IMG/VR virus record: IMGVR_UViG_3300035070_000246 | Coordinates: 1 to 22,931 of that record | Source: a virus | Direction: 5' to 3' (one strand) | DNA: 22,931 nucleotides | Shown: one piece after another, positions 1,004 to 20,192 of the stretch | How positions within the stretch are numbered: the stretch's first letter is position 1 | Layout: each line of letters starts with the position of its first letter | Notes under the pieces: generated by a model | The model's input: only the letters and a program-made list of their open reading frames with translations | What the model was told of the DNA's origin: nothing | The model's database searches: none | Translations under genes and position numbers: made by a program

Positions 1004-1184
1004 AGTATTGTACATTTACACCCTCGTGTTCGTATGCTAGAAAAAAGTAAAGTATGTCATCTTGTGTCGCTTTACTTTGTTGAAGCGCCAGAATAGCAGT
1101 ATCAGCCGCAGGTTGTCCTCCGACTGATACTGTTGAATGAATTGTGTCTACACCTTCTGATGTTGTATATCCTATTTTTATCAT
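984..1184 (-). CDS. Hypothetical protein of 66 residues, coupled to the J-like gene
   Basis: I do not recognise a family. The protein has no signal peptide or membrane segment. It is acidic in the middle, has one aromatic-rich stretch (ILYFFLAYEHEG) and ends in YLWLDPL. Its ATG overlaps the J stop codon as TAATG, and a GGAG site lies about 11 bases upstream, so expression probably depends on ribosomes finishing J. That coupling and the conserved operon position argue that it is a real gene. It is followed by a perfect hairpin and then the promoter of the next unit, making it the last gene of the long tail transcript. A small tail-tip accessory or assembly factor is possible, but no function can be assigned. 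Confidence 0.7.
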   Translation of the reverse strand: MIKIGYTTSEGVDTIHSTVSVGGQPAADTAILALQQSKATQDDILYFFLAYEHEGVNVQYLWLDPL

Positions 1185-4100
1185 TATACTGTATGCTCCA
1201 ATTTGAATGCCCCTGTTGGGAATGTTACGTTTAAATTAGTCGGTAGTACTTTTCTATTTCTGACTCGAAGCCTAAACTCCGTTGCAGTTGATGTCTTTGG
1301 GAGCGAGGCAGATAGATAAGTCTTATCATAGAAAGTTTCATTGTTTGGTAACGCAATAACACTATGTCTATCAGTAGCGTCATCAAAACCTGATTGAATT
1401 TGAACAAATCCGCTGGCCGAAGTAAAGTTTTCTGCACTGTAATGAACCGTGTCTCCCGAGTCAAAACTAAGACTTGCATCTAGGTACTCGATATATGTTC
1501 TATTGTTTGGGGCATCATAATATACTCCAATTACATCACCTTGTCCACTACTTCCATCAGCTGCCGCGCTAACACTGCCCGCAGAGCCAAACTCTTTTAG
1601 CTTGTTTCCTGAGATATAGACAGTTTCTGCAGAGAGACCTGCTGATACTGCATCTGCAGCTGCTGTTCCCAGGTTAGTGGCTGCGGTACCTTTTGCTTTC
1701 ATTTCCAAGTGTATAGAATACTCTGTGCTTTGAGTACTTCCTGTGCCATTAAACGCTTTTGTAGATAAAGTTCCACTAACTTTAACAGCCTTCGCCACGC
1801 CTTCCGGTGCAGGAATGCTAAACTCTTGAATAGTGGAATAAGTACCGAGTGTAGAAGCAAGCGTGTGATCTCCTGTCTGAACAGCTCTAAACTGTGTAGA
1901 ATATTCTTCGTTAAAATCACCTGACAGCTTATCTACAGTAAGAGAGCCTGCTGTCAACTCACCTGCGAAAGTACCTGTAGCACCTGTAATACTACCGGAG
2001 AAAGTACCAGACGTAGCAGTTAGGTTACCCGCCATATCTACTCGGAAAGGCGCACTTGCGAAAGTAGTATTACCAAGAGACAGCCCGTCTGAAGTAACTT
2101 TTAAAACGCTGCCATTTTCTCCTCCTAACTGAATAGGCATATCAGAAGTTCCAGCCACTGTAGACCCAGGGAGCCTGTAGAGATTACGCATTTGTGCATT
2201 TGAAATTGGATCATCAAAAAACTTAATCTCAGTAAACTGACCTACAAATTTATTTTGTGTCTGCGGTGATGCCTCTGTATTTACACCAAAAACAATAGGA
2301 CGAGCATTATCTGTAAGGGGCGTATACCCTGTTTTATTAAATATCTCTTCACCGTCTAAGAAGAACTTGAAATTAGTTCCATCATATACAATACCTGCAT
2401 GGTGCCATTGATTTAACGTTATTGCATTAGTCTTAACTACTGCTGCTCCAGTACCTGTAGCTTGGAGCTTCAGATCTTGAACACCATCAGCTGCTTCGTT
2501 CTGGCCCATGTACATAGCCCAATGGTTGTTATTATCTCGAGTAAGTAGTCTAGCATTACCACTGCCGCTACTAGAAGTGGACTTAAACCAATAACTAGCA
2601 GAGAAGCCTCCGGACTCAAGTGCATCAGCTTGTGAGTCTGACAAAAGTAACATGCCATCATCGTTTACAAGGCTGTTACCAGCAGGAGATTGTGTAGAAA
2701 CAGTAGGAGCTGTTCCAATGGCTTCTCCGTGCACTGCTGCAACAGTTTCTGTTATATAATCACCATTAACACTATTAGAGGGCCAGTAGTATGCTAAGGT
2801 ACTGTCGTCTGACTCTACTAGTGTGGGGGTTGCTGTAGCTAGCGAGGTGTAGGCATTAAATATAAAAGAAGATCCTGTCTTATAGATACTACCAACAACA
2901 ACATCATTTATAAAATCCACGTCAAGATTACTGGCCCTAATATGGGAGGAACTTACTGTATAGTTACCATCTTTATTTAGGTATAAAGTTGTATTGTCCC
3001 TAATATGAGTAATTCTTCCTAGTACCGTAGGGCTGTCTCCTGTGCCCGCAGCTAGAATATCACCTATCTTGAATTCTGTAGTAAAAGCGGTTCCGCTGCC
3101 TTTTATCAGGTTGCTATTTGCGGCTTTCGATATACTACCAGTTTTCTGGGCACTAAATCTGTTTGTTGCATTGCCGGTCCCGGCATCATACCAATAGTCT
3201 TCTCCATAAGCTTCGCGATGAAGCTTAACAAGCTTAACCTTATCAGTAGCATCACTATAGTCTAACATAATATAGAACAGATCAGACTCAAAGATGTTAC
3301 TAGTGCTAGGAGTGTACGAGATGGCTGGCATATCCGAACAGTCCTGTGACCAAGCAGTAGCAGTAGTAGAAGTATTCTCTTGCAGTCTTCCGTTGCCGTC
3401 CGACTTGACTTTATAGCTGCTTTTTTCAAATTGAAAAAGACCTGCCTCGTCTGTAAACATACTAGTGTCTGAGGTACCTCCAGTGGCCATGCCTAAAGCA
3501 ACTCTTTTTACGTTTTGCCCGTAGACATCTTCAAACTCGGCCACTGTTTGCTTGACCCTGGATTTGCTTCCTATCACACTTACAGCTTTTACCCCAAAAG
3601 TGTAAAAACCGTTTTCAATCCCCTCAAACTTATAATACGTATCTGTTTTAGGTACTAAGATAGGGGATTCGATTTCTTCAATATTGTGAGTTATTTCATA
3701 TTCCTCTAAATGTTCGTATGTAGTAAGGGCTCCTCCCTCTAGCGCGCTCTGGTCAATATTAGATTCTTCAATATCAGAAAGAGTTCCCTGACTTGCCGGG
3801 GCTTCCCACTCAAGTATAAACTCATTTCCGCTTATGGAAGGGTTTGGAAGTTCTGTAACAGTTACGCTCTGAACTGTAGGAACAGTATCTGTAGGCAAAA
3901 GTCTTGGAGCAATAGTGTCCTCCACATAAGTAGTGAAAACACCCTCAATAGCAGAGAACTTTTCATCATAGTGTCGAACTCCTATTAGCCCATAGCTTGA
4001 ATCGTCCTCTTCCACTATAGATAGGATTTTATAAGGCAGCGCTGCAGCATCGGTAACCGCACCACTATTGGCGGTTTCTTTTAGTACCCATATATGAGAC

Positions 4101-7100
4101 TTGCTAGGTAGACTAGAGAAAGCGGTACCTACAGAAAGCTGTGATATATCAGTACCTGCACTGGTCGATACAGTTCTTGTCTCTACTCGATGATTCTCTG
4201 AAAAATCAAGAAGCAGGGCATCTGTCGAACTAGCTGCAGCTTTTGCGTTTGTGGAGAAAGCTTTTGTGCTTATATCCTGCAAAGTATAAGTACCATCACC
4301 ATTACTATCAATAAACGCCTGCGGGATTAAATCACCGCGCACATAGTTCACTGAGTCAATAGTTGCGGAGTCTTGGGCCAATGTTGCAGCTTCGTCGATA
4401 AACATTACACTAAGATCGTAGCTGGAGGTAGCTAATAGTGCTACGGGCGAATCGAGAGGTATAGTAGTCTTAGAAAGAGGCACAATCTGGTTAGTATAAA
4501 CACGTAAGGCAGATATAATACTGCCCGACCATGCAGTAAGTGCATAGCTCCCTGCACTAGCGCTTTGACCGATACCCCAACCACCAAGATTACTACCCGA
4601 CCAAGTGCTTCCTTGCATGGCTGAGCCGTCTGTTGTAACTAGATCAAAATAGTTCTTGCCGTCAATCCACAATCTTGCTTGTCCTGCAGCAGGTTGCATC
4701 TCCCACGCTACAGTATGGGCGCGACCATCAAACTCAGGAATTTGGCTAACAGGTATTTCTCCGAGTACACAGGCAGTACTGGTTTCGGTAGCTGTTCCGT
4801 TGCCTGCGCGGAATACAAAATTATCTACCCCTCCGATATCTCTAATACCTACGTACATCCCTGTTCCGGTGCCTCCATATTCCATTAGACATTGGTCCTC
4901 AGAGAAGGTAGTAGGTAAGATAACTTCTCCTGCCATTACAACATTCTGTGCGCGGTGTGCATTAGTAAAACCGCTAGCACTAGTAGCGATACCTCCTGCG
5001 GCATAACTAGCTGAAACAGACAAACCCGCTTCTAAGTTGCCTGAAATCCTACCTCCGTGTCTAAATCCGGATTTATCTGCGTCCTGTACGTTCACAATAT
5101 CACCAGGCTTTAGGAAGGAGCCGTTTAATCCTGTAGCAAATTTAACAATCTCTGTTTGGTTTGCAGCAGTCCAGAGTTTCCATCTACCGTAGCGAAGAGC
5201 TTGTCCAAAGCTGGTACACCCAAACGCCACTGCGTCTTGGCTAATAATTTTTCCAGTTTCTAAAATATTATCTCTATCCTCTATAAGCAGAGGCTCTGGC
5301 TTGTAGTTAATATCTGGGTTGTTCCATGTCACTACTACTTGGTTAACGCGTGTTTTACCACCTGTACCTTCGTACTCAAAAGTCCCATCAATAACATTAG
5401 CTTTAGAGAAGTTATATATTGGGCCGGAGGGCGCATCTTGTACAGCAGTAACTTGTCCGTCAATAAAGTATAATATAGATCTAAAAGTAGATAGCATATC
5501 TTTTAATATTTTAAAAGAATCTGTTTTCTTAGTCAGAAAGATGTTGCTAGTAAATCTAGGCTCTTTTGTATCGTTGCCGGAACCGTCATCTACGAGTTCG
5601 TCACAGTATCGTGCTATTTTATACAGTTGATATATGTCAATATCGGAAGAAGAGAGGAAGTCTCCTAGTCCATATCTATTGTTTACCATAATATCAAAAA
5701 AGATCCAGGCAGGGTTATTTGTATACACTAAAGTATCTCTGAAACTACCGTCCCAATCTTGGTAAGTGCTCTGCACCACGCCATTGCTATCTCTATTATA
5801 AGTAGCGTGTCCCGTAAGGCTCTCTTCTCTTGTTACATAATTTGAAGGCACTCTTACCATCAGGCCTTGCAGATGGTAAGATCGCTTTGGTGTACTATTA
5901 AACTGCTTACTATTAAAACCAACTTTAGCCATTGCAGCATATGGGTGAGATAAGTTCTGCTTAAGTATTGCCACAGTTTGCGAAATAGACGTGCTAGATA
6001 TATTAGTCGTCTCTTCAATAACATCGCCCTTCCTATTTACAGCGTCTCCGTCGTGTGGAGTCTTCCTACTAATTACAAACTTAAAATCTGCGATAGGACC
6101 ATACCTTTCCATATCAACAGTTACTGCCCAAGATACTGAACTTTTGAACTGGCCACCATGCGTTAGGTTATCGTGTAGGACAAAAGCGGGAGAAAAGCTA
6201 CTAGATCCATCTTCCTGAAGGGCTAATGTTACCTTATACTGAGCAAGGTTCTCGCTTTCCTTGCCTTCATCATCTATCTTATAAAGCGCGGGATATTTAA
6301 AGAAAATCCTTACCTCACTAACGTTTCTGATTTGAGATGCAGTAAGGTTGAAACCCGTATCAGAAGAGCCTACTAGTGTTTTAGGAGCTTCTGAGCCTCC
6401 GAAGTCGTTGCTTTGCTCAATGCTACCGCCTGCACTCGGTACATTTGATACACCGACAGTACCAGGCCCTGCCTCCCCTGAGAAAGGGTGCTGTACTTCT
6501 CGGCCCGTTCTAAATTGTGTTTGAACACCGGGGTAATTATTCAAATAGTTATTTAGCTGTGTAATATTCCCATTGTAGAAGGTCCCTGAAAGGTTAAAAG
6601 AGTAGGGCGTCGCGCTACTCGTAGGGTTACCTGACCACGCATTTTTTAGAGTAAGCGTGTTACCGTCAATAGCTGTAATTTCTGCAATTTTATCTACAAA
6701 AAGTTTATAAGAGCCATTGCGTATAGTAAAACCGGAATTTCTGAGATTGGAGCCCGGCTGAAATAGACACTTATTTACAGAACCCGAACCAGAACTAGCC
6801 GTGTAACTCAGAAACCCAGCAATAGGCTCTCTACCTATATCATATAGAGAGTCGCTGTCTGGTATAATATGAGCCGGCACATACGTAGCTAAGTCGCTGC
6901 CTAAAGCAGACCTGTCGGACATCATAGCGGCTGTTAAGGAGTTCGCTCCGCCTACAACGGCAAGCTGTCTCATGCTTCGATCCCCTACTCTCGCTCTACC
7001 AGAGACCTCAGACCCGAGAACAGTAACCGCAATAGGACCTGTAAAGTTCTGCACGGTTAGCCATCTCTTAGCGGTTGTGGGTGTTATAGCATCGGCTTCA

Positions 7101-7384
7101 ATATCCTCCGCTATCTCACGAGTGAGACCCGCAGGAGCATTATTTATAGTAACTGAAGTAGATCCATTTGTTGTTGATACAGTCATAGTTCCGTCAATGG
7201 AATACAGCCCCGACTCTTCTGGAGGTACTGACATGGCATCATTAAGATAAACACCCGACTCAGCCCCTACCAGACCTCTAATAGGCCCTTCACAGATCAA
7301 ATCTGTTATAACTACACTCTGTTTTGAGAATGGCACTGCGTTAGTGGCTCCAGCTCCTCCTCCTCCTCCTCCTGCTCCGGGCAT
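1184..7384 (-). CDS. J-like tail tip / host-specificity protein with two LamG-type insertions
   Basis: This 2066-residue protein is the central tail fibre/tip protein corresponding to lambda gpJ, which is about 1130 residues, so this one is much larger. It has the Gly-rich N-terminus and SVVITDLICEGPIRGLV start typical of J. The J core includes NNPAWIFFDIMVNNRYGLG near 556-574, and LKPGDIVNVQD with GGRI near 758-780. A LamG/concanavalin-like domain (about 781-970) is inserted there, after which the J fold resumes with PLDSPVALL. Fibronectin type III-like sequence lies at about 1170-1285 and a small GSGTAFTTEFKIGD beta motif at about 1428-1442. A second LamG domain with NQWHHAGIVYDG and FFLDGE spans about 1525-1740. 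A Gly/Ser/Thr-rich shaft at 1770-1825 precedes a C-terminal beta domain that probably contacts the receptor. The ATG overlaps the I-like stop as TAATG, with GGGAG nine bases upstream. I infer a role in adsorption and opening of the tail tip. Confidence 0.96.
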   Translation of the reverse strand: MPGAGGGGGGAGATNAVPFSKQSVVITDLICEGPIRGLVGAESGVYLNDAMSVPPEESGLYSIDGTMTVSTTNGSTSVTINNAPAGLTREIAEDIEADAITPTTAKRWLTVQNFTGPIAVTVLGSEVSGRARVGDRSMRQLAVVGGANSLTAAMMSDRSALGSDLATYVPAHIIPDSDSLYDIGREPIAGFLSYTASSGSGSVNKCLFQPGSNLRNSGFTIRNGSYKLFVDKIAEITAIDGNTLTLKNAWSGNPTSSATPYSFNLSGTFYNGNITQLNNYLNNYPGVQTQFRTGREVQHPFSGEAGPGTVGVSNVPSAGGSIEQSNDFGGSEAPKTLVGSSDTGFNLTASQIRNVSEVRIFFKYPALYKIDDEGKESENLAQYKVTLALQEDGSSSFSPAFVLHDNLTHGGQFKSSVSWAVTVDMERYGPIADFKFVISRKTPHDGDAVNRKGDVIEETTNISSTSISQTVAILKQNLSHPYAAMAKVGFNSKQFNSTPKRSYHLQGLMVRVPSNYVTREESLTGHATYNRDSNGVVQSTYQDWDGSFRDTLVYTNNPAWIFFDIMVNNRYGLGDFLSSSDIDIYQLYKIARYCDELVDDGSGNDTKEPRFTSNIFLTKKTDSFKILKDMLSTFRSILYFIDGQVTAVQDAPSGPIYNFSKANVIDGTFEYEGTGGKTRVNQVVVTWNNPDINYKPEPLLIEDRDNILETGKIISQDAVAFGCTSFGQALRYGRWKLWTAANQTEIVKFATGLNGSFLKPGDIVNVQDADKSGFRHGGRISGNLEAGLSVSASYAAGGIATSASGFTNAHRAQNVVMAGEVILPTTFSEDQCLMEYGGTGTGMYVGIRDIGGVDNFVFRAGNGTATETSTACVLGEIPVSQIPEFDGRAHTVAWEMQPAAGQARLWIDGKNYFDLVTTDGSAMQGSTWSGSNLGGWGIGQSASAGSYALTAWSGSIISALRVYTNQIVPLSKTTIPLDSPVALLATSSYDLSVMFIDEAATLAQDSATIDSVNYVRGDLIPQAFIDSNGDGTYTLQDISTKAFSTNAKAAASSTDALLLDFSENHRVETRTVSTSAGTDISQLSVGTAFSSLPSKSHIWVLKETANSGAVTDAAALPYKILSIVEEDDSSYGLIGVRHYDEKFSAIEGVFTTYVEDTIAPRLLPTDTVPTVQSVTVTELPNPSISGNEFILEWEAPASQGTLSDIEESNIDQSALEGGALTTYEHLEEYEITHNIEEIESPILVPKTDTYYKFEGIENGFYTFGVKAVSVIGSKSRVKQTVAEFEDVYGQNVKRVALGMATGGTSDTSMFTDEAGLFQFEKSSYKVKSDGNGRLQENTSTTATAWSQDCSDMPAISYTPSTSNIFESDLFYIMLDYSDATDKVKLVKLHREAYGEDYWYDAGTGNATNRFSAQKTGSISKAANSNLIKGSGTAFTTEFKIGDILAAGTGDSPTVLGRITHIRDNTTLYLNKDGNYTVSSSHIRASNLDVDFINDVVVGSIYKTGSSFIFNAYTSLATATPTLVESDDSTLAYYWPSNSVNGDYITETVAAVHGEAIGTAPTVSTQSPAGNSLVNDDGMLLLSDSQADALESGGFSASYWFKSTSSSGSGNARLLTRDNNNHWAMYMGQNEAADGVQDLKLQATGTGAAVVKTNAITLNQWHHAGIVYDGTNFKFFLDGEEIFNKTGYTPLTDNARPIVFGVNTEASPQTQNKFVGQFTEIKFFDDPISNAQMRNLYRLPGSTVAGTSDMPIQLGGENGSVLKVTSDGLSLGNTTFASAPFRVDMAGNLTATSGTFSGSITGATGTFAGELTAGSLTVDKLSGDFNEEYSTQFRAVQTGDHTLASTLGTYSTIQEFSIPAPEGVAKAVKVSGTLSTKAFNGTGSTQSTEYSIHLEMKAKGTAATNLGTAAADAVSAGLSAETVYISGNKLKEFGSAGSVSAAADGSSGQGDVIGVYYDAPNNRTYIEYLDASLSFDSGDTVHYSAENFTSASGFVQIQSGFDDATDRHSVIALPNNETFYDKTYLSASLPKTSTATEFRLRVRNRKVLPTNLNVTFPTGAFKLEHTV
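2165..2812 (-). other. Second LamG-type domain of the J-like protein
   Basis: Residues about 1525-1740 contain WHHAGIVYDGTNFKFFLDGE, the classic core of LamG/concanavalin-A-like lectin domains, followed by a VFGVN strand and an FTEIKFFDDPIS-type closing strand. Such domains usually bind glycans or other surface ligands. The domain lies just before the Gly/Ser/Thr-rich shaft near the C-terminus, where receptor-contact domains would be expected. Confidence 0.85.
4475..5044 (-). other. LamG-like domain inserted within the J core
   Basis: Residues about 781-970 interrupt the usual J segment between the GGRI strand and the PLDSPV strand. The insert has LamG-like features: HTVAWEMQPAAGQARLWIDG, a jelly-roll-like strand pattern, and a closing ISALRVY strand. 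Because the J sequence continues on either side, it is best read as a domain insertion into a loop. The ligand is unknown. Confidence 0.7.
7356..7373. repeat. (CCT)6 microsatellite encoding the Gly run of the J-like protein
   Basis: Six CCT units on the plus strand (GGA-type on the sense strand) encode six glycines near residues 5-10 of the J-like protein. Slippage here would change length by whole codons. A Gly-rich N-terminus is usual for J. Confidence 0.8.
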
Positions 7385-8082
7385 TACGCGTACTCCCTAT
7401 ATTTTTCTGAATCTACTATATCTAGATTATTGTTTCTGTCAATTATTACGTTATTGTTCATAAATTCTCCTTGAGATAGATTGAAAGCTACCGGTCTGCC
7501 TGGCACCCTTAATTCTCCGTATAGTACGGGAATAGGGTCTCCCTCGACCACTAGCTGTTGAGTTCCTTGATATATATAATCGGTAATCTCTTCGTCTACA
7601 GCGGGGTCTGGTGCCAATACCTGCTGCATCCCCGCAGTAGCTAAACTAACGGCTAAGCCCATAGCCATTGTCTGCATACCTGAAAAGCTTGCTGACAAAC
7701 CTGCGGACCAGGCACTTGCTCCTGCTGCCGCCTCTCCTGCGGCAATTGCCGCGGATCCGGCTGTAACAATTACAAGATATGCTATAGCGATTGCCGCTAA
7801 GATTTTACCTACGCCGGTTTTTGAACCTGCGGGTATAGAAGTGATGGTGACATCTCCTTCTTGCAAAGGAACTAGCAAGCCTTCTTCAGACTCTACTGAT
7901 TTATCTGCCATATCTATTGTAAAGCCTACATTTTTATCTACGCAGTCTAATACGTACTTTTTAAACTCGGGCCTGTTTGCATTTATGCACTTTAATATGT
8001 CTTGATAAGAGTCTGCGTTTACATAAAACACTTCCCCAAACTTTTCTTTTAGCTCTCCGGCTAAAGTAACTTTACGACGCAT
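7384..8082 (-). CDS. I-like tail tip assembly protein
   Basis: This protein corresponds to lambda gpI, required for assembly of the tail tip. The N-terminal part (residues 1-85) is a small ubiquitin-like beta-grasp region beginning MRRKVTLAGELKEKFG and ending VTITSIPAGSKTG. It is followed by Ala/Gly-rich hydrophobic segments (about residues 90-150, IAIAYLVIVTAGSAAIAAG) and a C-terminal DPIPVLYGELRVPGRPVA motif that is also found in this family. I chose the ATG at 8082 rather than a TTG at 8097. The ATG gives the N-terminus expected for the family, follows a GGAG site nine bases upstream, and overlaps the K-like gene by 11 bases. The product is 232 residues. It overlaps J by TAATG, keeping the K-I-J order of lambda. 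A possible weak promoter lies within its 3' end, just before J. Confidence 0.93.
   Translation of the reverse strand: MRRKVTLAGELKEKFGEVFYVNADSYQDILKCINANRPEFKKYVLDCVDKNVGFTIDMADKSVESEEGLLVPLQEGDVTITSIPAGSKTGVGKILAAIAIAYLVIVTAGSAAIAAGEAAAGASAWSAGLSASFSGMQTMAMGLAVSLATAGMQQVLAPDPAVDEEITDYIYQGTQQLVVEGDPIPVLYGELRVPGRPVAFNLSQGEFMNNNVIIDRNNNLDIVDSEKYREYA
7415..7442 (-). promoter_or_regulatory. Possible internal promoter before the J-like gene
   Basis: TTGACA (7437-7442), a 16-base spacer and TATAGT (7415-7420) lie on the sense strand about 30-60 bases upstream of the J start, inside the end of the I-like gene. The boxes match well, but the region is coding and AT-rich, so chance is possible. Confidence 0.4.
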
Positions 8083-8770
8083 AACGATATACTCCAATTA
8101 TATGTTTTTTCCAGAAAGGGTAGATACTCTCTCTGCAAGATATTCTGTTTTGTGCATGATGATATAGTAAATCATCACCTAAATATATTCCACAATGATT
8201 ACCTAGTGTGGATCTGATTGCAAAAATAAGTAAGTCCCCTTTTTGCATATTACCTTCAACTTTCTTGAAACCCCAAGTACTAATATACTCTTCTGTGAAA
8301 TAGTCTATTCCTTTTTCCCACCAGTCGTCTTCAAATGGTATTCTTTTTGGTAAGTCAATCCCCTCGGCTTTATAGTAATCTATTCCTGCATCTAAACAGT
8401 CCGAGACTCCAAACTCATAATCTCTACCATACAAAGGCTTTGACAAGGTCTGGGGTTTTATTGTATTTAACTTCATGTCCGGATAACTGAAAATGTGATA
8501 AGGTATCTTCGTAGCATTGCAATAGTTTATATCCGAAATACTAGCCTCATTGCTGGCATCTGGGTGACTATGAACTACAGCTACAATATCGCAGCTTCTT
8601 GATATTTTTAAGTATTGCTGAGAGTCTATTATAAAGTCTTCCGTACCTGTTGCTACGTTATCGCAAGGAAACCATTTTAACTCACCCTTAGCTACTCCTA
8701 ATACTCCGCAACCTTCTTTAGGGTACCACTTTTCAAAATGGGCCTCTATCTCCTCTAAAAATTGTATCAT
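8072..8770 (-). CDS. K-like tail tip protein: JAMM/MPN peptidase plus NlpC/P60 domain
   Basis: This 232-residue protein has the two-domain layout of lambda gpK. The N-terminal JAMM/Mov34 metal-peptidase domain shows E19 in an EGCGVL context and the full H67-x-H69-x7-S77-x2-D80 zinc motif. The C-terminal NlpC/P60 domain shows the catalytic cysteine C125 in GVSDC, a histidine H192 in GNHCGIYLG, and H204/H205. NlpC/P60 enzymes cut peptidoglycan peptides, so it may help the tail cross the cell wall, and the JAMM part may process tail-tip proteins. A longer frame begins at a TTG at 8803, but the ATG at 8770 follows directly after the L stop (TAATATG) and is the better start. It overlaps the I-like gene by 11 bases. 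All catalytic residues of both domains appear present. Confidence 0.94.
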   Translation of the reverse strand: MIQFLEEIEAHFEKWYPKEGCGVLGVAKGELKWFPCDNVATGTEDFIIDSQQYLKISRSCDIVAVVHSHPDASNEASISDINYCNATKIPYHIFSYPDMKLNTIKPQTLSKPLYGRDYEFGVSDCLDAGIDYYKAEGIDLPKRIPFEDDWWEKGIDYFTEEYISTWGFKKVEGNMQKGDLLIFAIRSTLGNHCGIYLGDDLLYHHAQNRISCRESIYPFWKKHIIGVYRYAS

Positions 8771-8771
8771 A

Positions 8772-9974
8772 TTAGAATTTCTGAGTTCCTGGGAACCCTC
8801 CAAAAGGTAAAACGAAGTTTCTCTTCATAAAAGTAGGAGGATTATTATTTGTAAGAGAAGAAGTCGGTGTGAAACCAAATCTACATTGACAAGAATTAAG
8901 TGTCTTTCCGCATAAATCAATCCTAACCCAAAAAGTCTTGTTAGTAGGTAGAATGGTCCCTGCAACACTCGTAGAGGAGTTATGTCCTAGGTAGCATTCA
9001 TATATTGCATTGCTATGTATTACTAAGTCTCCTAAAGAGTAGTCCTTATCTGTAGCATCATGGTCTTCGTAAAGACGCACCTCTTTCCATAATTGCTTGT
9101 CGCTTGTAGTACTTGGCTCTTTAGGTGCGGTTGCAGTATGGGTTACCTGTACCTGCCAGTACTTGCCTCCATTAACTACATAGTGAGGAACATCAGAATT
9201 TACATTGGGCGTACCAATTTCAATGATACCTCGAAACCCGTAGCGCTGGCCTGCTGCCCAAGCAGGGGCGTTCGAAGACTGAATAGCCCACGACTTAGCA
9301 ACTAAAGGAACATCATTTACATCGAAAAAAGCTCGATGAGATGTAGTCGTTCCTGAGTTCAAGTTTAGGTCTACAATTACCTCACTGCCCGATCTAAAAG
9401 AGCAACCTCCTCTAAGGTCTTCTGCTCCTTGGTAGACCCATGAGCAGTATTTCCCTACAACTTCTCTTCTGGGAAGTGTTATGTTTTGTAAATCATAGGG
9501 CGCTGTTACTTCAAAGGTAACAGATGAAGCATTCTGACTCGCGATTCTATCAATAACATATTTGATTACGGAGAACTCAGTAGGTGCAGTTCCTGACGAA
9601 CCTGCAGCATACTCTCCATGTAGATGCTTCTGGAGGGTTCGACGTCTAACTAAAGTTCTACCCACTAGGTCATCGTTTTTGAAGTCTCCTGATATACCCG
9701 TAAATACGCTTACTATATTAGCAAGAGTAAAAGTAGGTCTATGAGATGCTCCATCTGATTGAAGCTCTAATCCCTCGATTAAAATAGGAAAGGCTGTGTA
9801 AGTTCTAAGCGTGTACGGAGCGTTGCTATCTCTAAACTGTACGGTAGTTAAGTCGGACTCAGTGCCTGAATGAAGGTATATTACTGTACCATTAGACAAA
9901 GTCAACTCAAATAGATTGACTAGTGCGGAACCCGGCTCCAGTTGTTGTAAATCTGTTGCAATTATATCACTCAT
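8772..9974 (-). CDS. L-like minor tail protein with inserted carbohydrate-binding-like repeats
   Basis: This corresponds to lambda gpL, a tail-tip protein that binds a 4Fe-4S cluster. The likely cluster ligands are C177 (KYCSW), C191 (GGCSF), C355 and C362 (CGKTLNSC). The last pair has the same seven-residue offset as in lambda gpL. At 400 residues it is far longer than lambda gpL (about 230). The extra length is an insertion of about 145 residues between C191 and C355. It contains two units that resemble type 5/12 carbohydrate-binding (chitin-binding type 3) modules: WAAGQ... to LWKEV (about 239-299) and YSLGDLVIHSNAIYECYLG to FWVRI (about 312-352). The ATG overlaps the stop of the M-like gene as ATGA. 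The assignment to gpL is firm; the sugar-binding role is inferred. Confidence 0.93.
   Translation of the reverse strand: MSDIIATDLQQLEPGSALVNLFELTLSNGTVIYLHSGTESDLTTVQFRDSNAPYTLRTYTAFPILIEGLELQSDGASHRPTFTLANIVSVFTGISGDFKNDDLVGRTLVRRRTLQKHLHGEYAAGSSGTAPTEFSVIKYVIDRIASQNASSVTFEVTAPYDLQNITLPRREVVGKYCSWVYQGAEDLRGGCSFRSGSEVIVDLNLNSGTTTSHRAFFDVNDVPLVAKSWAIQSSNAPAWAAGQRYGFRGIIEIGTPNVNSDVPHYVVNGGKYWQVQVTHTATAPKEPSTTSDKQLWKEVRLYEDHDATDKDYSLGDLVIHSNAIYECYLGHNSSTSVAGTILPTNKTFWVRIDLCGKTLNSCQCRFGFTPTSSLTNNNPPTFMKRNFVLPFGGFPGTQKF
8913..9350 (-). other. Insertion in the L-like gene with two CBM5/12-like units
   Basis: Residues about 209-354 lie between the second and third predicted iron-sulphur cysteines. 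Both units share the pattern of an early Tyr-x-x-Gly, a central aromatic pair (KYWQVQVTH and IYECYLGH), a proline and then Trp near the end (LWKEV and FWVRI), as in small chitin- or polysaccharide-binding modules. C327 within the insert is probably not a cluster ligand. Confidence 0.6.
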
Positions 9975-10351
9975 GGCTCATAAACTCTTCTTAGTTCTAC
10001 TGTTAATGTGTAAAAATCGTCGTAGGTGTACATAGTTGCATAAGTAGCGCAAACCACTTTCACATCTTTTTCACCTGTTCTAGTTGTATTGTTTGAGTCT
10101 GGTAAAGTCAGTGTAAAAGCTGAGGCACCCGCCATTGTATCCAAAAAGACAACTACATCGTCTACAAACTCTTTCGTTCTAGTATTGAAGCTTAGACTAT
10201 ACTTCTCTTCGATGGTATTTATACCATTTTTTGTTCTCTGCTCATATCCGTCCCCAAACTTTGCGCTAATAACTCTAGGGGTAGTGGCTCGTGTCAAAGA
10301 TTTATCAGGAGTAGCATAGCTAATGCCTGTATATATGAATCCCAATGCCAT
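9971..10351 (-). CDS. M-like minor tail protein
   Basis: This 126-residue protein matches the lambda gpM family, a component of the tail tip next to the distal tube. The diagnostic motif is ISAKFGDGYEQR near residues 28-39, followed by a compact beta-rich body with an FTLTLPDS strand and a VELRRV C-terminal strand. Its length is close to lambda gpM (about 109). It lies between the tape measure and the L-like gene, its place in lambda. The ATG overlaps the tape-measure stop as TAATG and is preceded by GGAG seven bases upstream. The stop overlaps the L start as ATGA. It probably forms the ring connecting the tail tube to the tip. Confidence 0.92.
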   Translation of the reverse strand: MALGFIYTGISYATPDKSLTRATTPRVISAKFGDGYEQRTKNGINTIEEKYSLSFNTRTKEFVDDVVVFLDTMAGASAFTLTLPDSNNTTRTGEKDVKVVCATYATMYTYDDFYTLTVELRRVYEP

Positions 10352-13300: not shown

Positions 13301-13596
13301 ATCTTGAGATCTCCTGCTCGCTTTAGAAAGTTATATGCTGCACTTATGGCAAAAAGAGATGCGGCTAAGGTTGCATAGGCGGCTACTAAACCTCCTGTGC
13401 CCTGCTGCATCTTAGAGAAGGCTTTCGTACTATTAGACGTGGCGTTTGCGACACCTTTGTGCTTTTTTGAGTACTTGTCGGAGCTATTAGCAGCTTGGTC
13501 TAAACCTTTAGCGGCATTTTTTGCGCCTAGGCCAACCTTCTTGGTTGTACCCTTGTCATCTACTTTTACGTCTATTTGAACTTTATTTTTCGACAT
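10351..13596 (-). CDS. Tape measure protein
   Basis: This 1081-residue protein sets tail length and is probably ejected with the DNA. It has the expected tape-measure layout: a basic polar N-terminus, long helical regions with heptad-like Ala/Leu/Glu/Lys stretches (for example 250-275 and 570-900), and several hydrophobic segments (about 68-92, 280-320, 464-488 and just before the C-terminal Gly-rich region). The last 150 residues or so are Gly-rich and contain GYSAGGVARG and LHGTEAVVPLPNG, a motif frequent at the C-terminus of phage tape measures. By the usual 0.15 nm per residue rule, a tail near 160 nm is expected (an estimate). It begins with a TAATG overlap with the G-T frame and has AAAGG just upstream, so its synthesis is tied to the frameshifted G-T product. 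Confidence 0.97.
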   Translation of the reverse strand: MSKNKVQIDVKVDDKGTTKKVGLGAKNAAKGLDQAANSSDKYSKKHKGVANATSNSTKAFSKMQQGTGGLVAAYATLAASLFAISAAYNFLKRAGDLKILQQGQVAYSSATGIAMKSLTSDIIAATDAQVTFQEASQAAAIGIASGLDPDQLIRLGKAAKDASAMLGRDVTDSFNRLVRGVTKAEPELLDELGIILRLETASKNYALAINKDVKALTTFEKSQAVTNEVLRQAEEKYGRIMDITSVGSNRYAKLGKAFDDVTNKLKLLAEKAAGPLADLLIETPRLALLAFGLLMKPVLTAVLPGLANVAAATAAIATTADASFKSATKRAEDYQKALNARKPDVDPRAAQAGVAGALKGLPPGASRSILAQAQAGKQLSNRQIKVLRDEVTKKKLLRGKELKDFLTHLANMQRANTVANKRMVADFNNAQEQKKLGLKKFELFAKSSMARVASFGAGAARFMSVAFSAIGWFGMLASIAMVVKGLFGQKEATEEVTKATDRLGEKMQEVSADLKHFLVIQKEINREGTATEAVIMNIGKAFSNYSATDLEKLTKGINSSASAVADLKLLDAAATGSKNKLALLKTELDALGTGKQNRSARQALQTQIRELRDTMDTPASQQYRDSLEAQIASTKEFRTQLTDVLAVLDMETDAKLKNSAQGKELHRVLTFSLAGRKLEKGALLAAILNYQNLGKQIAQVTKLRIENARTGQALRDKLFPKTEAEKYLQTLNSQLELENSIQAANAVEAEAQQKRIKGLTAEIALIRELNEQKLRHASEAQTLNIAQTLDAPDIEFPGLKKRREELNKVAQAELKLNQMREQAELKRDMLQTVVNPTQAQLAELEKINGELILQEDLVRRANLALTDGHKITQTLAGAVESNMTTAFAGLIDGTMTVKQAFASMAQGILKALTQVIAELIVVKLLKMAIGGFSGGTTVTTSGGHRGAGQAGAYTGGSSFGGGRHLGNSRGFRNGGIAMPPKGYSAGGVARGSTSGYPAVLHGTEAVVPLPNGNSIPVEMKGSGAITNNNITVNVASDGQATTQGGQGMDMKKMGAAVAAAVQKELHTQKRSGGILSPYGAA

Positions 13597-14431
13597 TAGC
13601 CTTTCACGTTATGGGTGAAATTTTTTCCACCGCCCGCAGAGCTCTTTCGTTCCTCTGCCTTTCGTTTTCTTTCTGACTCTTCTGCTCTAGTTTGTACTAT
13701 GAGTCCTTCGTACAATTTCAGTATATACATCATTGTGCGTGGCTCTTCAACTTCATACAAACTAAACAAGTATTCTATATTTCCCCACTGTTTCCCCAGG
13801 TAGCTACCAGACATGCCTTCCCATTTGTCTTCGAGTAGTCCAAATAGAAAAAATGCCACTTGGACCTCCACGGGAAAATCCGAGGGGTCGAGCGGCATCT
13901 TTTGGGGGTCGGGCTCTTGCCCTAATTCTTCGCAGATACGTAAATACTTATCTAAATCAAGTGACTTAGACTGCTTTACATATCTCTCAAGTAGGGCGTT
14001 TATCTCCCCTACTTGTTCCCAGTAAAATTTTCTAGATCGCCCACTGTCTCAGTAACCCAGCTATCAAAGTCGCTGGAGTTTCTCATCAAAAGTTCTGCGT
14101 TGTCGTGGGTGTATGCAAGTTCATCGTCTGGGTCAAGTTCCGAGATATCTACCAAAAGAAGCTCTTCTAGGTAACGATACTTTAGGCCTGTCCAGCCTTT
14201 AATGACTGCTTTACAGTATTCTAATAAAAACTTATCTTCGTCAAGAATTTCTTCAGGCTGACGAGTCTTTTTACTAAACTTAGTGCTAACACATTTCTTA
14301 CGAAGCTTTACTAACTCTTCTCTGCCCAAATAACATAGGCTTACTTCCATTCCTGTGTAACCGGGGAAGTCAACTGATACTGTCTTACTTGGTGTCATTA
14401 GAGTGGCTAATGAAATAGGGGTGTCGCTCAT
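13596..14431 (-). CDS. Tail assembly chaperone G-T fusion made by -1 ribosomal frameshift
   Basis: The minor product reads the G frame to codons 135-136 (AAT TTT), shifts back one base, and continues YWEQVGEINALLERY... through the 13596-14024 frame to a TAA at 13598-13596. This adds 142 residues to 136 and makes 278, very near lambda gpG-T. The downstream frame is open across 13899-14023 with no start codon, so an independent gene beginning at the ATG at 13898 is unlikely; that ATG also lacks a Shine-Dalgarno site. The T extension ends in a charged Arg/Glu/Lys region. In lambda, gpG coats the tape measure and the T part recruits tail tube subunits; the same role is inferred here. The shift signal is described separately. 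Confidence 0.9.
13988..14030 (-). promoter_or_regulatory. Programmed -1 frameshift signal: slippery heptamer and stem-loop
   Basis: The heptamer A AAT TTT (14030-14024), an X XXY YYZ site in the correct G frame, is followed by an eight-base spacer and a perfect 9-bp stem (CAAGTAGGG/CCCTACTTG, 14015-14007 and 13996-13988) with a 10-base loop. The G stop codon lies within the stem. Slippery site, spacing and structure all match known -1 frameshift elements. Confidence 0.92.
14009..14431 (-). CDS. Tail assembly chaperone, G-like (unshifted product)
   Basis: This 140-residue protein is the same length as lambda gpG and sits immediately upstream of the tape measure. It is acidic in its C-terminal half (for example DISELDPDDELAY), with an N-terminal ISLATLMTPSKTVSVDFPG segment like that of other phage tail chaperones. 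The slippery site is at codons 135-136, five codons before the TAG stop, so most ribosomes should terminate and make this form. The start is preceded by AAGGA six bases away. It is the first gene after promoter P2. The role is to bind the hydrophobic tape measure and keep it soluble while the tube assembles. The assignment rests on position, length and frameshift layout more than on strong sequence motifs. Confidence 0.92.
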   Translation of the reverse strand: MSDTPISLATLMTPSKTVSVDFPGYTGMEVSLCYLGREELVKLRKKCVSTKFSKKTRQPEEILDEDKFLLEYCKAVIKGWTGLKYRYLEELLLVDISELDPDDELAYTHDNAELLMRNSSDFDSWVTETVGDLENFTGNK

Positions 14432-14600: not shown

Positions 14601-15749
14601 TTAGACTGCTAGGCCCTTATAAACAATTGTAGCTTCATCTGCGTTATTGATAGTAGTAGGCAAAGCATGGAAGTTAACCTCTAATGAGATTACGTCTTCA
14701 ATACTATGCGTAGGTACTTCTAAATGACAGGTCGGTAAAGTTACTTTCATTGTAGGAGCAGAAGTACCGCCGATGTCAAACACTAGGTTGAAATCGTTAG
14801 TTACAATACCTGTAGACTCAATTAAGTCTTCAAACAAGTCTGCGCTTCCTGCTGAAGAATTGCTCAAGTAACAAGTAAAGCTTCCGCCAATATTACGTGT
14901 ACCAGTTACGTGACCAATCGGCTGATTGATTACACCCAGAGTTTCTGGGGTCAGGTAAGTAATGTTGTTCTCAAAATTCAAGCTTCCGCCTGTTAATGTA
15001 AGAGTGTACGAACCAACAATAGAGCCTTCTGCAGTATTTCCTGTAGTAGTCAAAGTAGTAAGACGGTTACGAATAAAGTTATTCGTAGCAGAGATACCTT
15101 CATTGATAGTCACAGTAGGGACATCAGTGGCGTTAATTTCTGTAATAAGAGATGCAAAGCCAGCCCAGTTAATAGTAGCAATACCATCAATATCAAAATC
15201 AATACCTGCACTATTTACTACGGAAGATGTTAGTTTGTAAGCCTGGTGAGTTGCGTCGGCGATAGTGCCACTACCCATTACAAAGTAAATATCATAGGTC
15301 TTTAAAGTTACTAAGTTTGAACCTTCGAAATCAATGGTACAAGTTGTGGTGGTGTTGGCAATATTATCAGACCAAACGGACTCGCCACCACCTGAAGAAG
15401 GGGTGAAACCTGCATTACCTACTAAACCGTTCCAAAGGGCTTCTTCGACTGCGTGCACGTGTGCGTCGGAACCAGTATCTTCCCAACCGCCTGTGGCTGC
15501 CGCAGTAGACGCAAAAGGACGTGCATATGTGCTGAAAGACCATTCTGCAGGTGCATAAGAGTCATTGAACATTTGACGAGCGCGTCGGCTAGTTGTACCA
15601 CCTGAAGTGGCCATTTCGTTTAGAGTAATTTCGGAAGCATTGGTAGCTTGAGAAAAAGAAAATCCGTCAAGAACCGGAATCTCCCATGTTGTAGTACCGT
15701 CTGATACCATTACTCTGGTGTTTCTGCTAAAAAATAAATTATCAGCCAT
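14601..15749 (-). CDS. Major tail (tube) protein
   Basis: This 382-residue protein has the signature of a siphovirus tube protein: an N-terminal FFSRNTRVMVSDG with WEIPVLDGFSFSQAT, then MATSGGTTSRRARQMFND and an APAEWSFSTYARP segment (roughly residues 45-80). The C-terminal half contains INQPIGHVTGTRNIGGSFTCYL and ends with a MKVTLPTCHLEVPTHSIEDVISLEVNFHAL-type segment that closes the tube fold. It is larger than the lambda tube protein gpV (246), perhaps because of an added outward-facing domain in the middle (about residues 115-245). A strong AGGAG site lies eight bases before the ATG. A UUCG-loop terminator follows directly, as expected for one of the most abundant transcripts. Its place between tail terminator and chaperones is the classical order. 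Confidence 0.95.
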   Translation of the reverse strand: MADNLFFSRNTRVMVSDGTTTWEIPVLDGFSFSQATNASEITLNEMATSGGTTSRRARQMFNDSYAPAEWSFSTYARPFASTAAATGGWEDTGSDAHVHAVEEALWNGLVGNAGFTPSSGGGESVWSDNIANTTTTCTIDFEGSNLVTLKTYDIYFVMGSGTIADATHQAYKLTSSVVNSAGIDFDIDGIATINWAGFASLITEINATDVPTVTINEGISATNNFIRNRLTTLTTTGNTAEGSIVGSYTLTLTGGSLNFENNITYLTPETLGVINQPIGHVTGTRNIGGSFTCYLSNSSAGSADLFEDLIESTGIVTNDFNLVFDIGGTSAPTMKVTLPTCHLEVPTHSIEDVISLEVNFHALPTTINNADEATIVYKGLAV

Positions 15750-18281: not shown

Positions 18282-20192
18282 TTAAGCAGCTGGTCGAACC
18301 AATGAAGCACCAACACCAGAGATGATCTGGCTGAAGCCCATAGATTGGCTAGATACGATAGCTGTACGCTGGTTAGCAACTTCGTAGTCAGTCTCAACCT
18401 GCAAACCACCCAGACGTGGGATGATGAATGCGTCACGGTTAGCAACAACAGCGTCGCCGTCAACACCAAGCTGGTCACTTACTACAACTGGAGAGCCGTA
18501 GAAGTTAGCGATAGTACCAGTAATACGTGCAGCATTATCCATGCCTACCTGCTGGAACTCATCGAACTCGCCTTCTTGGAGCAGCTCGTTATAAGCACCA
18601 ACAGAAAGGATGTAAACCAGACGAGAAGGATCAACGCCAAGGTTGCCCAGAGCAGCACGACCTGCGATCAAGTCTTTACGACCCATAACAGCCTCAGCGC
18701 CTTCGTCAGTAGCAGAAGCATTGTCAAGAATATCTACGATAGTCTTTTCAACTTTCTTAGCCTGCGAGTGTGCAAGAGCGTTCATGATGATTGGCATTAC
18801 AGTAGCAACCATAACTTCATCAGTGTTGTTGTCGATAAACTGACCAGCGATCAAACGGTTAGTAGTCAGAGTAACATTACCCAGAGCGTACTCACCGTCA
18901 GTACCACCGCCATCAGCGATACGGTTACCATCAGTACCGATACCACCAGTGTTAGCAGCAGCCTGAGTTGGCTCCAAACCTACTGGGATAACAGTCTTCT
19001 GAGCAGTAACAGGCAGCTCTTCGAAGAAGTTAGCAGTACGGTAGTTCAAACGTACGTTCTCTTCGAACCGGTCGATAGCAGTTTGTTCAACAGCACCGGT
19101 GAAAGCAACGTTAGCCTTCTGGAGAGCAGCTTGACCAGTAGCAGTGTCTTCGAAAGACTTGCCTAGTACTTTAGCAACCATAGAAGCGTTCATAAACTCC
19201 TTACCGAAGCTAGACATATCGCCTGACTTCTGGCCACGGCCAGAGAAGTCGCGCTTGCTGTTACGCATAGCTTCCATCTCTGAAGCGTGCTCTTTAAGGG
19301 CAGACTCATACTTCTCTACTACTTCAGCCATGTTAGCATCTTTAGCAGTTAGTTCTTTTTGCATATCAGCTTCGAGAGCTTCAACGCCAGTTTTAACACC
19401 AGTTTCGATGCTTGATTTGATTGATTCAGCTTCAGCAGCTTTAGCAGCGTCTGCGTCTTGAGCGGCTTTTTCAGCTGCTTTTTGCTCGGCCTGCTTCATT
19501 GCGATTTTAGCAGCAGTTTCGTCTGCAACCTGCTTCGCAAAAGCTTCCAAGTCGATTTGATTCTTGTCCATTTTGATCTCCTGATCTGCGGAATTAAGTT
19601 CCGCGCTTTTCGGTGTGTGGTCACTAGCTATATTTGAAGAAGTATCTTCGTCCTTAGCCAGAGACTGACCGGCTAGATCTACACGATTAGTGAAAGTTTT
19701 TTTGAATTCGTCGTATTCCTCAGAGGAATCAAACGACTTCGCGAGCGAAAAAGTAGCTGCCTGATTGCAGGGTACCGATACAACCGATACTTCAAACAAC
19801 TCAGCGTCCTTAATCATTAGTCCGTCAGTTTCTTTTAGGTAGTCCGCGTCCTTGACTTTGAAACCGACGGAAAAGGCTCCAAGGACACCGTCTTTAACGA
19901 GTTCAGCGACATTGCCAGGGGCATTTTTGCTGATCTTACATTCGAGTTCTAAACCATTTGGTCCTGCTTTCATACCTGTGGCTCGACCAATTGGTCTGTC
20001 ATAGTCATGATTGAACAGAATAATTGGATTCTTCTCAAAGTTTTGTAATCCACCTTTAGTCCAAGCCTCAGCTGAGATTGTATCGCCTGCGCGATCAAAA
20101 TCTGCTGTACTAGCCATACCACGGATCATTACTGATCCATCGTCTGATTCTGCGGCTTTGAAAGTAGATGTTAGATTAAAAATCTTATTCAT
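18282..20192 (-). CDS. Prohead protease - scaffold (delta) - HK97-fold major capsid protein fusion
   Basis: This 636-residue ORF joins three parts. Residues 1-165 are the HK97 prohead protease (U35/S78 family): FNHDYDRPIG with likely catalytic H62, GAFSVGFK with S108, and ELFEVSVVSVP with E131/E134. A linker (165-207) leads to an acidic/Ala-rich coiled-coil scaffold or delta domain (about 208-312), then the HK97-fold capsid (about 325-636) with TAIDRFEENVRLNYRTANFFEELPV and the C-terminal GGLQVETDYEVANQRTA segment. Cleavage near the coiled-coil/capsid border is inferred. The first ATG has only a weak GAGA site, whereas the internal ATG at 19571 (residue 208) has AGGAG six bases upstream. Two products are therefore likely: a rare full-length form and an abundant scaffold-capsid form of 429 residues. 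Codon choice also becomes more like that of highly expressed genes in the capsid part. Confidence 0.96.
   Translation of the reverse strand: MNKIFNLTSTFKAAESDDGSVMIRGMASTADFDRAGDTISAEAWTKGGLQNFEKNPIILFNHDYDRPIGRATGMKAGPNGLELECKISKNAPGNVAELVKDGVLGAFSVGFKVKDADYLKETDGLMIKDAELFEVSVVSVPCNQAATFSLAKSFDSSEEYDEFKKTFTNRVDLAGQSLAKDEDTSSNIASDHTPKSAELNSADQEIKMDKNQIDLEAFAKQVADETAAKIAMKQAEQKAAEKAAQDADAAKAAEAESIKSSIETGVKTGVEALEADMQKELTAKDANMAEVVEKYESALKEHASEMEAMRNSKRDFSGRGQKSGDMSSFGKEFMNASMVAKVLGKSFEDTATGQAALQKANVAFTGAVEQTAIDRFEENVRLNYRTANFFEELPVTAQKTVIPVGLEPTQAAANTGGIGTDGNRIADGGGTDGEYALGNVTLTTNRLIAGQFIDNNTDEVMVATVMPIIMNALAHSQAKKVEKTIVDILDNASATDEGAEAVMGRKDLIAGRAALGNLGVDPSRLVYILSVGAYNELLQEGEFDEFQQVGMDNAARITGTIANFYGSPVVVSDQLGVDGDAVVANRDAFIIPRLGGLQVETDYEVANQRTAIVSSQSMGFSQIISGVGASLVRPAA
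19569..19582 (-). promoter_or_regulatory. Internal ribosome-binding site and start for scaffold-capsid
   Basis: AGGAG, then a six-base spacer and ATG (19571-19569) sit in frame inside the protease-capsid ORF, at codon 208, exactly where the coiled-coil scaffold begins (MDKNQIDLEAF). This would yield a 429-residue product ending at 18282. The outer start at 20192 has a much weaker site, so internal initiation should dominate. Confidence 0.85.

Follow-up and report, generated by a model that had tools for sequence, protein, structure and literature searches.

The chaperone genes and the end of G

The window, that is the whole stretch of 22,931 nucleotides of viral DNA analysed here, carries a tail module with the gene order major tail protein, G, T, tape measure. 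All coding at the chaperone locus lies on the minus strand and the RNA fold that we counted is that of the minus-strand transcript. The positions of the genes and of the signals between them are compiled in Table 1. G as well as T match tail assembly chaperone families of the PHROG collection, T with an E value of 1.1e-15. The stop codon of T and the start codon of the tape measure gene overlap as TAATG (13594-13598, minus strand); the translation of the tape measure protein may be coupled to the few ribosomes which finish T.

Table 1. Features of the G–T chaperone locus and its neighbouring tail genes
Feature	Position	Strand	Remarks and evidence
Tape measure protein, 1081 aa	10351..13596	-	phrog_3779, E 1.6e-39; expected client of G and G–T
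T, -1-frame domain, 142 residues, C-terminal part of G–T	13596..14024	-	open frame; phrog_3914
Putative stimulatory hairpin	13988..14015	-	fold, covariation, selection against synonymous shuffles
Stem 3' arm CCCTACTTG	13996-13988	-	pairs with 14015-14007
Hairpin loop GAGATAAACG	14006-13997	-	10 nt
Stem 5' arm CAAGTAGGG	14015-14007	-	9 bp, perfect pairing
G stop codon TAG	14009..14011	-	within stem 5' arm; sequence
Spacer ACTGGGAA	14023-14016	-	8 nt; sequence
Slippery heptamer A AAT TTT	14030-14024	-	in frame with G; sequence
G, tail assembly chaperone, zero-frame product, 140 aa	14009..14431	-	ORF; phrog_313, E 2.5e-11
Major tail protein	14601..15749	-	phrog_3575, E 9.1e-54; expected partner of the T domain

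On the minus strand the site reads ...GAT CTA GA[A AAT TTT] ACT GGG AAC AAG TAG. A first-pass annotation had proposed a complete -1 frameshift cassette at this place, and its elements could all be recovered: the heptamer is in frame with G, its Phe codon precedes the G stop by five codons, and the eight-base spacer and the perfect 9-bp stem–loop enclosing this stop agree in every base. On its coding (minus) strand the window has a single AAATTTT. Folding of the RNA, which had been suggested as a check, returned the same structure, since the minimum-energy prediction for 64 nt of the minus strand is the 9-bp hairpin with -16.1 kcal/mol. Compared with dinucleotide shuffles of the window sequence the hairpin has a z of -2.07 and 6 of 200 shuffles folded equally well; taken by itself the window sequence therefore has an only moderately unusual hairpin and the case for it rests on the relatives described below. 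A search of the window against Rfam matched no family.

In the -1 frame 142 sense codons run from 14024 up to the stop codon at 13598-13596, as had been predicted together with the product lengths of 140 residues for G and 278 for the fusion. G–T consists of 136 + 142 = 278 aa with the junction ENF/YWEQ. A mechanical gene call for T starts at ATG 13898 and yields 100 aa, whereby the first 42 residues of T are lost. This truncation by standard gene calling had likewise been foreseen, although the stretch 13899-14023 that was called residues consists of bases.

Searches of Pfam gave no match for G and no meaningful match for T, and the PDB sequence search with a G profile returned one unrelated weak match and nothing else. 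The AlphaFold2 model of G has a pLDDT of 84 and in BFVD matches the predicted structures of T5-like tape measure chaperones. Among solved structures it matches weakly YqbN (3KLU, rank 1, Z 5.5) and the HK97 chaperone (2OB9, rank 2, Z 4.7, rmsd 9.0, 94 residues aligned); for the T model the structure comparison gave no usable match. As a helix ends G (120-138) and another opens T (2-18), the junction of G–T probably lies inside a helix, judging from separate models of G and T.

Conservation of heptamer, frame and hairpin

Two scans of IMG/VR yielded 116 distinct G–T regions, and in the counts given here these relatives are not statistically independent. Close relatives were found in a Porticoccaceae MAG and in another gammaproteobacterial MAG. 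T lies in the -1 frame in 116/116 relatives and the heptamer is AAATTTT in 115 of them; the remaining one, L057, has TTTTTTT around 3402-3408 in place of the slippery AAATTTT, which is another efficient heptamer class. The last codon of G lies four codons past the Phe codon in 113 relatives and seven in three. Elsewhere in the G genes of the relatives Asn is encoded by AAT 226 times and by AAC 176 times (AAT 56%), and Phe by TTT 466 times and by TTC 143 times (TTT 77%). Because these codons are mixed, the invariance of the heptamer is not a matter of codon bias. In 55 of the 116 relatives a stop codon closes the -1 frame directly before the heptamer, and T can therefore be entered only at the heptamer.

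These data bear on the possibility that T is a separate gene translated from the internal codon ATG 13898, with no frameshift and with an incidental heptamer. Such a start would agree with the 100-aa ORF of the mechanical call and with the annotators of T5-like phages, who list T as a gene of its own. In the relatives, however, conservation of the T frame sets in with the first T codon at the heptamer, which is 42 codons upstream of ATG 13898. The Met of this ATG sits in the conserved core motif DPxKMP and is not preceded by a Shine-Dalgarno-like sequence. An internal start would moreover leave the invariant heptamer and the covarying stem unexplained, and we regard it as very unlikely.

For the hairpin we folded the 51 nt after the heptamer in 82 relatives with a mutual identity below 92%, and used as controls sequences in which the T protein was kept and the synonymous codons were drawn at random. 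The natural sequences have a mean of -12.4 kcal/mol versus -5.7 kcal/mol in these T-frame synonymous shuffles. z is negative in 82/82 relatives with a mean of -2.7, and at other positions along the G and T genes it lies between +0.5 and -1.2. In an alignment of 76 sequences the columns of the window stem are paired in 86.7% of the cells; cells with changes on both sides number 70 compared to 26 in shuffles, and stems slid along this alignment perform far worse. Parsimony on a tree of 79 sequences counts 27 compensatory two-sided changes versus 1-7 in slid controls.

When the stem was allowed to start 0-14 nt after the heptamer, the best stem was found 8 nt past it in most relatives and elsewhere within the 14 nt in the rest. 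In a few relatives, L055, L078, and L150 among them, the stem is weak or displaced. L018, L020, L024, and L071 carry a longer alternative stem, CCCGAATAG...CTATTCGGG, approximately 15 nt past the heptamer and thus beyond the range of the 0-14 nt scan. L019 also retains AAATTTT with a different longer stem about 15 nt downstream. This distance of the alternative stem is farther than usual for a stimulator. The relatives thus form a natural set of frameshift signals with one fixed heptamer and dozens of stem variants, some of the stems being wholly different.

A G+C-rich hairpin holding the G stop codon could also be a transcription terminator, which uses such hairpins too, or regulate termination at that codon instead of stimulating frameshifting. 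Yet there is no U-run after the 3' arm, the distance between stem and heptamer is mostly kept, lineages with a different stem retain the same heptamer, and a terminator at this place would leave T and the tape measure gene untranscribed. We consider this function extremely improbable.

A probable ribosomal switch of the lambda type

The PHROG matches, the gene position, the conservation of the heptamer and the covarying hairpin all support the proposed -1 frameshift cassette in the tail chaperone gene. From the sequence and its comparison with the relatives we conclude that the locus almost certainly carries a -1 programmed ribosomal frameshift signal for making the tail assembly chaperones G and G–T. 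While the cassette, its conservation, the selected stem and the conserved T frame are observed directly, we infer the slippage itself, its frequency and the roles of the two products as follows. Most ribosomes would translate G and terminate at the TAG within the hairpin. A minority would pause at the hairpin with AAU in the P site and UUU in the A site, and a back-slip by one base onto AAA and UUU would bring them into the -1 frame, giving the G–T protein of 278 residues. The tape measure protein of lambda is coated by G and linked to the major tail protein by G–T, the rarer product (PMC5009743). By analogy, many G molecules would coat the tape measure protein of the window and few G–T molecules would recruit the major tail protein via the T domain.

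In Escherichia coli the most efficient heptamers include those of the type H_HH.U_UU.Y, and the usual start of a stimulator is 5-8 nt downstream (PMC4066793). This class includes A AAU UUU and U UUU UUU, and the window fits the class as well as the spacing of 5-8 nt; the efficiencies are those of E. coli and may not hold in the phage's own host. Slippage of the RNA polymerase on A/T runs is an extremely improbable source of the -1 product. Although AAAATTTT contains runs of four and L057 has TTTTTTT, a run of four is short for the polymerase to slip on, and a slipping polymerase would have no need of a codon-phased heptamer or of an RNA hairpin that starts 8 nt downstream.

Frameshift switches of the -1 type are well known for the chaperones of tailed phages and the ribosomal signal of the window is of this known kind. 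As in the lambda-type G/G–T arrangement, two overlapping ORFs are flanked by the genes for the major tail protein and the tape measure with the second ORF in the -1 frame, a conserved in-frame heptamer precedes the G stop, and the products match chaperone families; there is also a downstream structure, which many members have and not all need. Lambda shares with the window the order major tail protein, G, T, tape measure, a G of 140 aa, an X XXY YYZ heptamer in frame near the end of G, and T in the -1 frame. It differs in the heptamer, which is GGGAAAG in lambda and AAATTTT in the window, and in the family of G, phrog_42 in lambda versus phrog_313 in the window. The first-pass annotation had called the products near-identical to lambda. 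This holds for the protein lengths but not for the sequence of G, as BLASTP gave no alignment between the G proteins of the window and lambda at E <= 100. Membership in one sequence family with lambda G was therefore rejected, the G of the window belonging to phrog_313 together with that of T5. A heptamer with a hairpin a few nucleotides downstream as stimulator is also found in insertion sequences of the IS3 family, which differ in their genes and use other heptamers, mostly A_AA.A_AA.G/A (PMC4066793).

For a large and abundant group of marine phages the -1 signal means a correction of the annotation, as T is to be described as a fusion from the shift site and not as a truncated gene.

The opposite frame of T in T5-like phages

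A megablast search of the tail region against phage records gave no match; with tblastn, G and T were found in about 890-900 phage records. The tblastn matches are mainly T5-like phages (Demerecviridae) of Vibrio, Salmonella, Escherichia, and Klebsiella, and T5-like phages also have the nearest relatives of the window's terminase and capsid proteins. These phages have a homologous G (35-41% identity) that belongs to phrog_313, a homologous T (about 26-43%), the same Phe codon at the junction and a fusion of similar length, 263-288 aa. Unlike the window they have T in the +1 frame, and their G contains TTT-CG and no A AAT TTT. The opposite frame of T is the less expected part of our finding.

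We read 16 representatives from at least eight named genera, namely L258 (T5, 1116-1520), L161, L162, L164, L249-L252, L254-L257, L259, L260, L262, and L263. T is in the +1 frame in 16/16, and in all 16 the Phe codon of G that aligns with the slippery Phe codon of the window is TTT followed by CG. Upstream of this Phe codon the +1 frame has a stop codon at a distance of 2-9 codons in 14 of the 16 and of 37 codons in the other two. The first start codon of the +1 frame follows at least 24 codons downstream in most of them, within or past conserved sequence, the exceptions being five phages with GTG or TTG at codon 1, 7 or 8. Between Pantoea phage AAS21 and T5 the homology of T starts exactly at the junction Phe. 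Most substitutions between the junction and the annotated start of T are at third positions of the +1 frame, the close pair X1/PG07 with its three changes in all being the exception. A uniform downstream hairpin was sought in the T5-like group and none was seen.

At the UUU-C in the T5-like G the Phe tRNA could slip forward from UUU onto UUC. From the TTT-CG motif we infer that this shift would be +1 rather than -2, two steps which the frame alone cannot tell apart. T of the window and its close relatives is in the -1 frame and is thus without the +1 entry of the T5-like phages at TTT-CG. T5 and Sugarland are said to have no predicted frameshift signal (PMC6256483), and most annotations miss what is probably a +1 frameshift at UUU-C. 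The record of Salmonella phage Shivani contains a joined chaperone CDS of 832 nt over the same gene pair, the product length of 277 residues suggesting that it was entered as a -2 step. Because of this annotation the T5-like fusion is not wholly unknown, and only the conservation of TTT-CG at this site and its contrast to the -1 clade may be new.

One change of direction is enough for a tree calculated from 25 fusions, with a support of 100/99 for the separating branch; the tree is unrooted and some of the T5-like sequences form long branches. On such a tree either direction of the shift may be the ancestral one. Taken together, it is likely that opposite directions are used at one orthologous Phe codon, T5-like phages including T5 itself shifting +1 at UUU-C and the marine clade -1 at A AAU UUU with its hairpin, that a single switch separates them, and that the shift in the T5 group has been largely overlooked. 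The comparison suggests that selection preserves a minor G–T fusion and leaves the shift free to change its direction. The T5 case is directly testable in E. coli.

Two further T5-like loci have peculiarities. L253 (Aeromonas phage AhSzq-1) has internal stops in the G and T frames and no gene calls in this region, probably owing to sequence errors; TTTCG is present at the expected junction all the same. The other locus, also T5-like, is in L261 (PP355768, Klebsiella phage vB_Kpn_AM_K6, 261 kb, labelled Straboviridae), a record which may be a joined assembly of two phages.

The tail module of the window is mosaic, with a lambda-like tail tip against head, tail tube and chaperones that are nearest to T5. 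The genes of the tail tip (1184-10351, minus strand) match lambda-like families (phrog_14, 18, 30, 32, and 31), namely those of the minor tail protein, the tail assembly protein and the central tail fibre J. A 636-aa protein encoded at 18282-20192 on the minus strand matches with its N-terminal half the head maturation protease family phrog_80, and it also matches the major head protein family phrog_617. It resembles a fusion of protease and capsid protein, which are encoded by two genes in T5-like phages.
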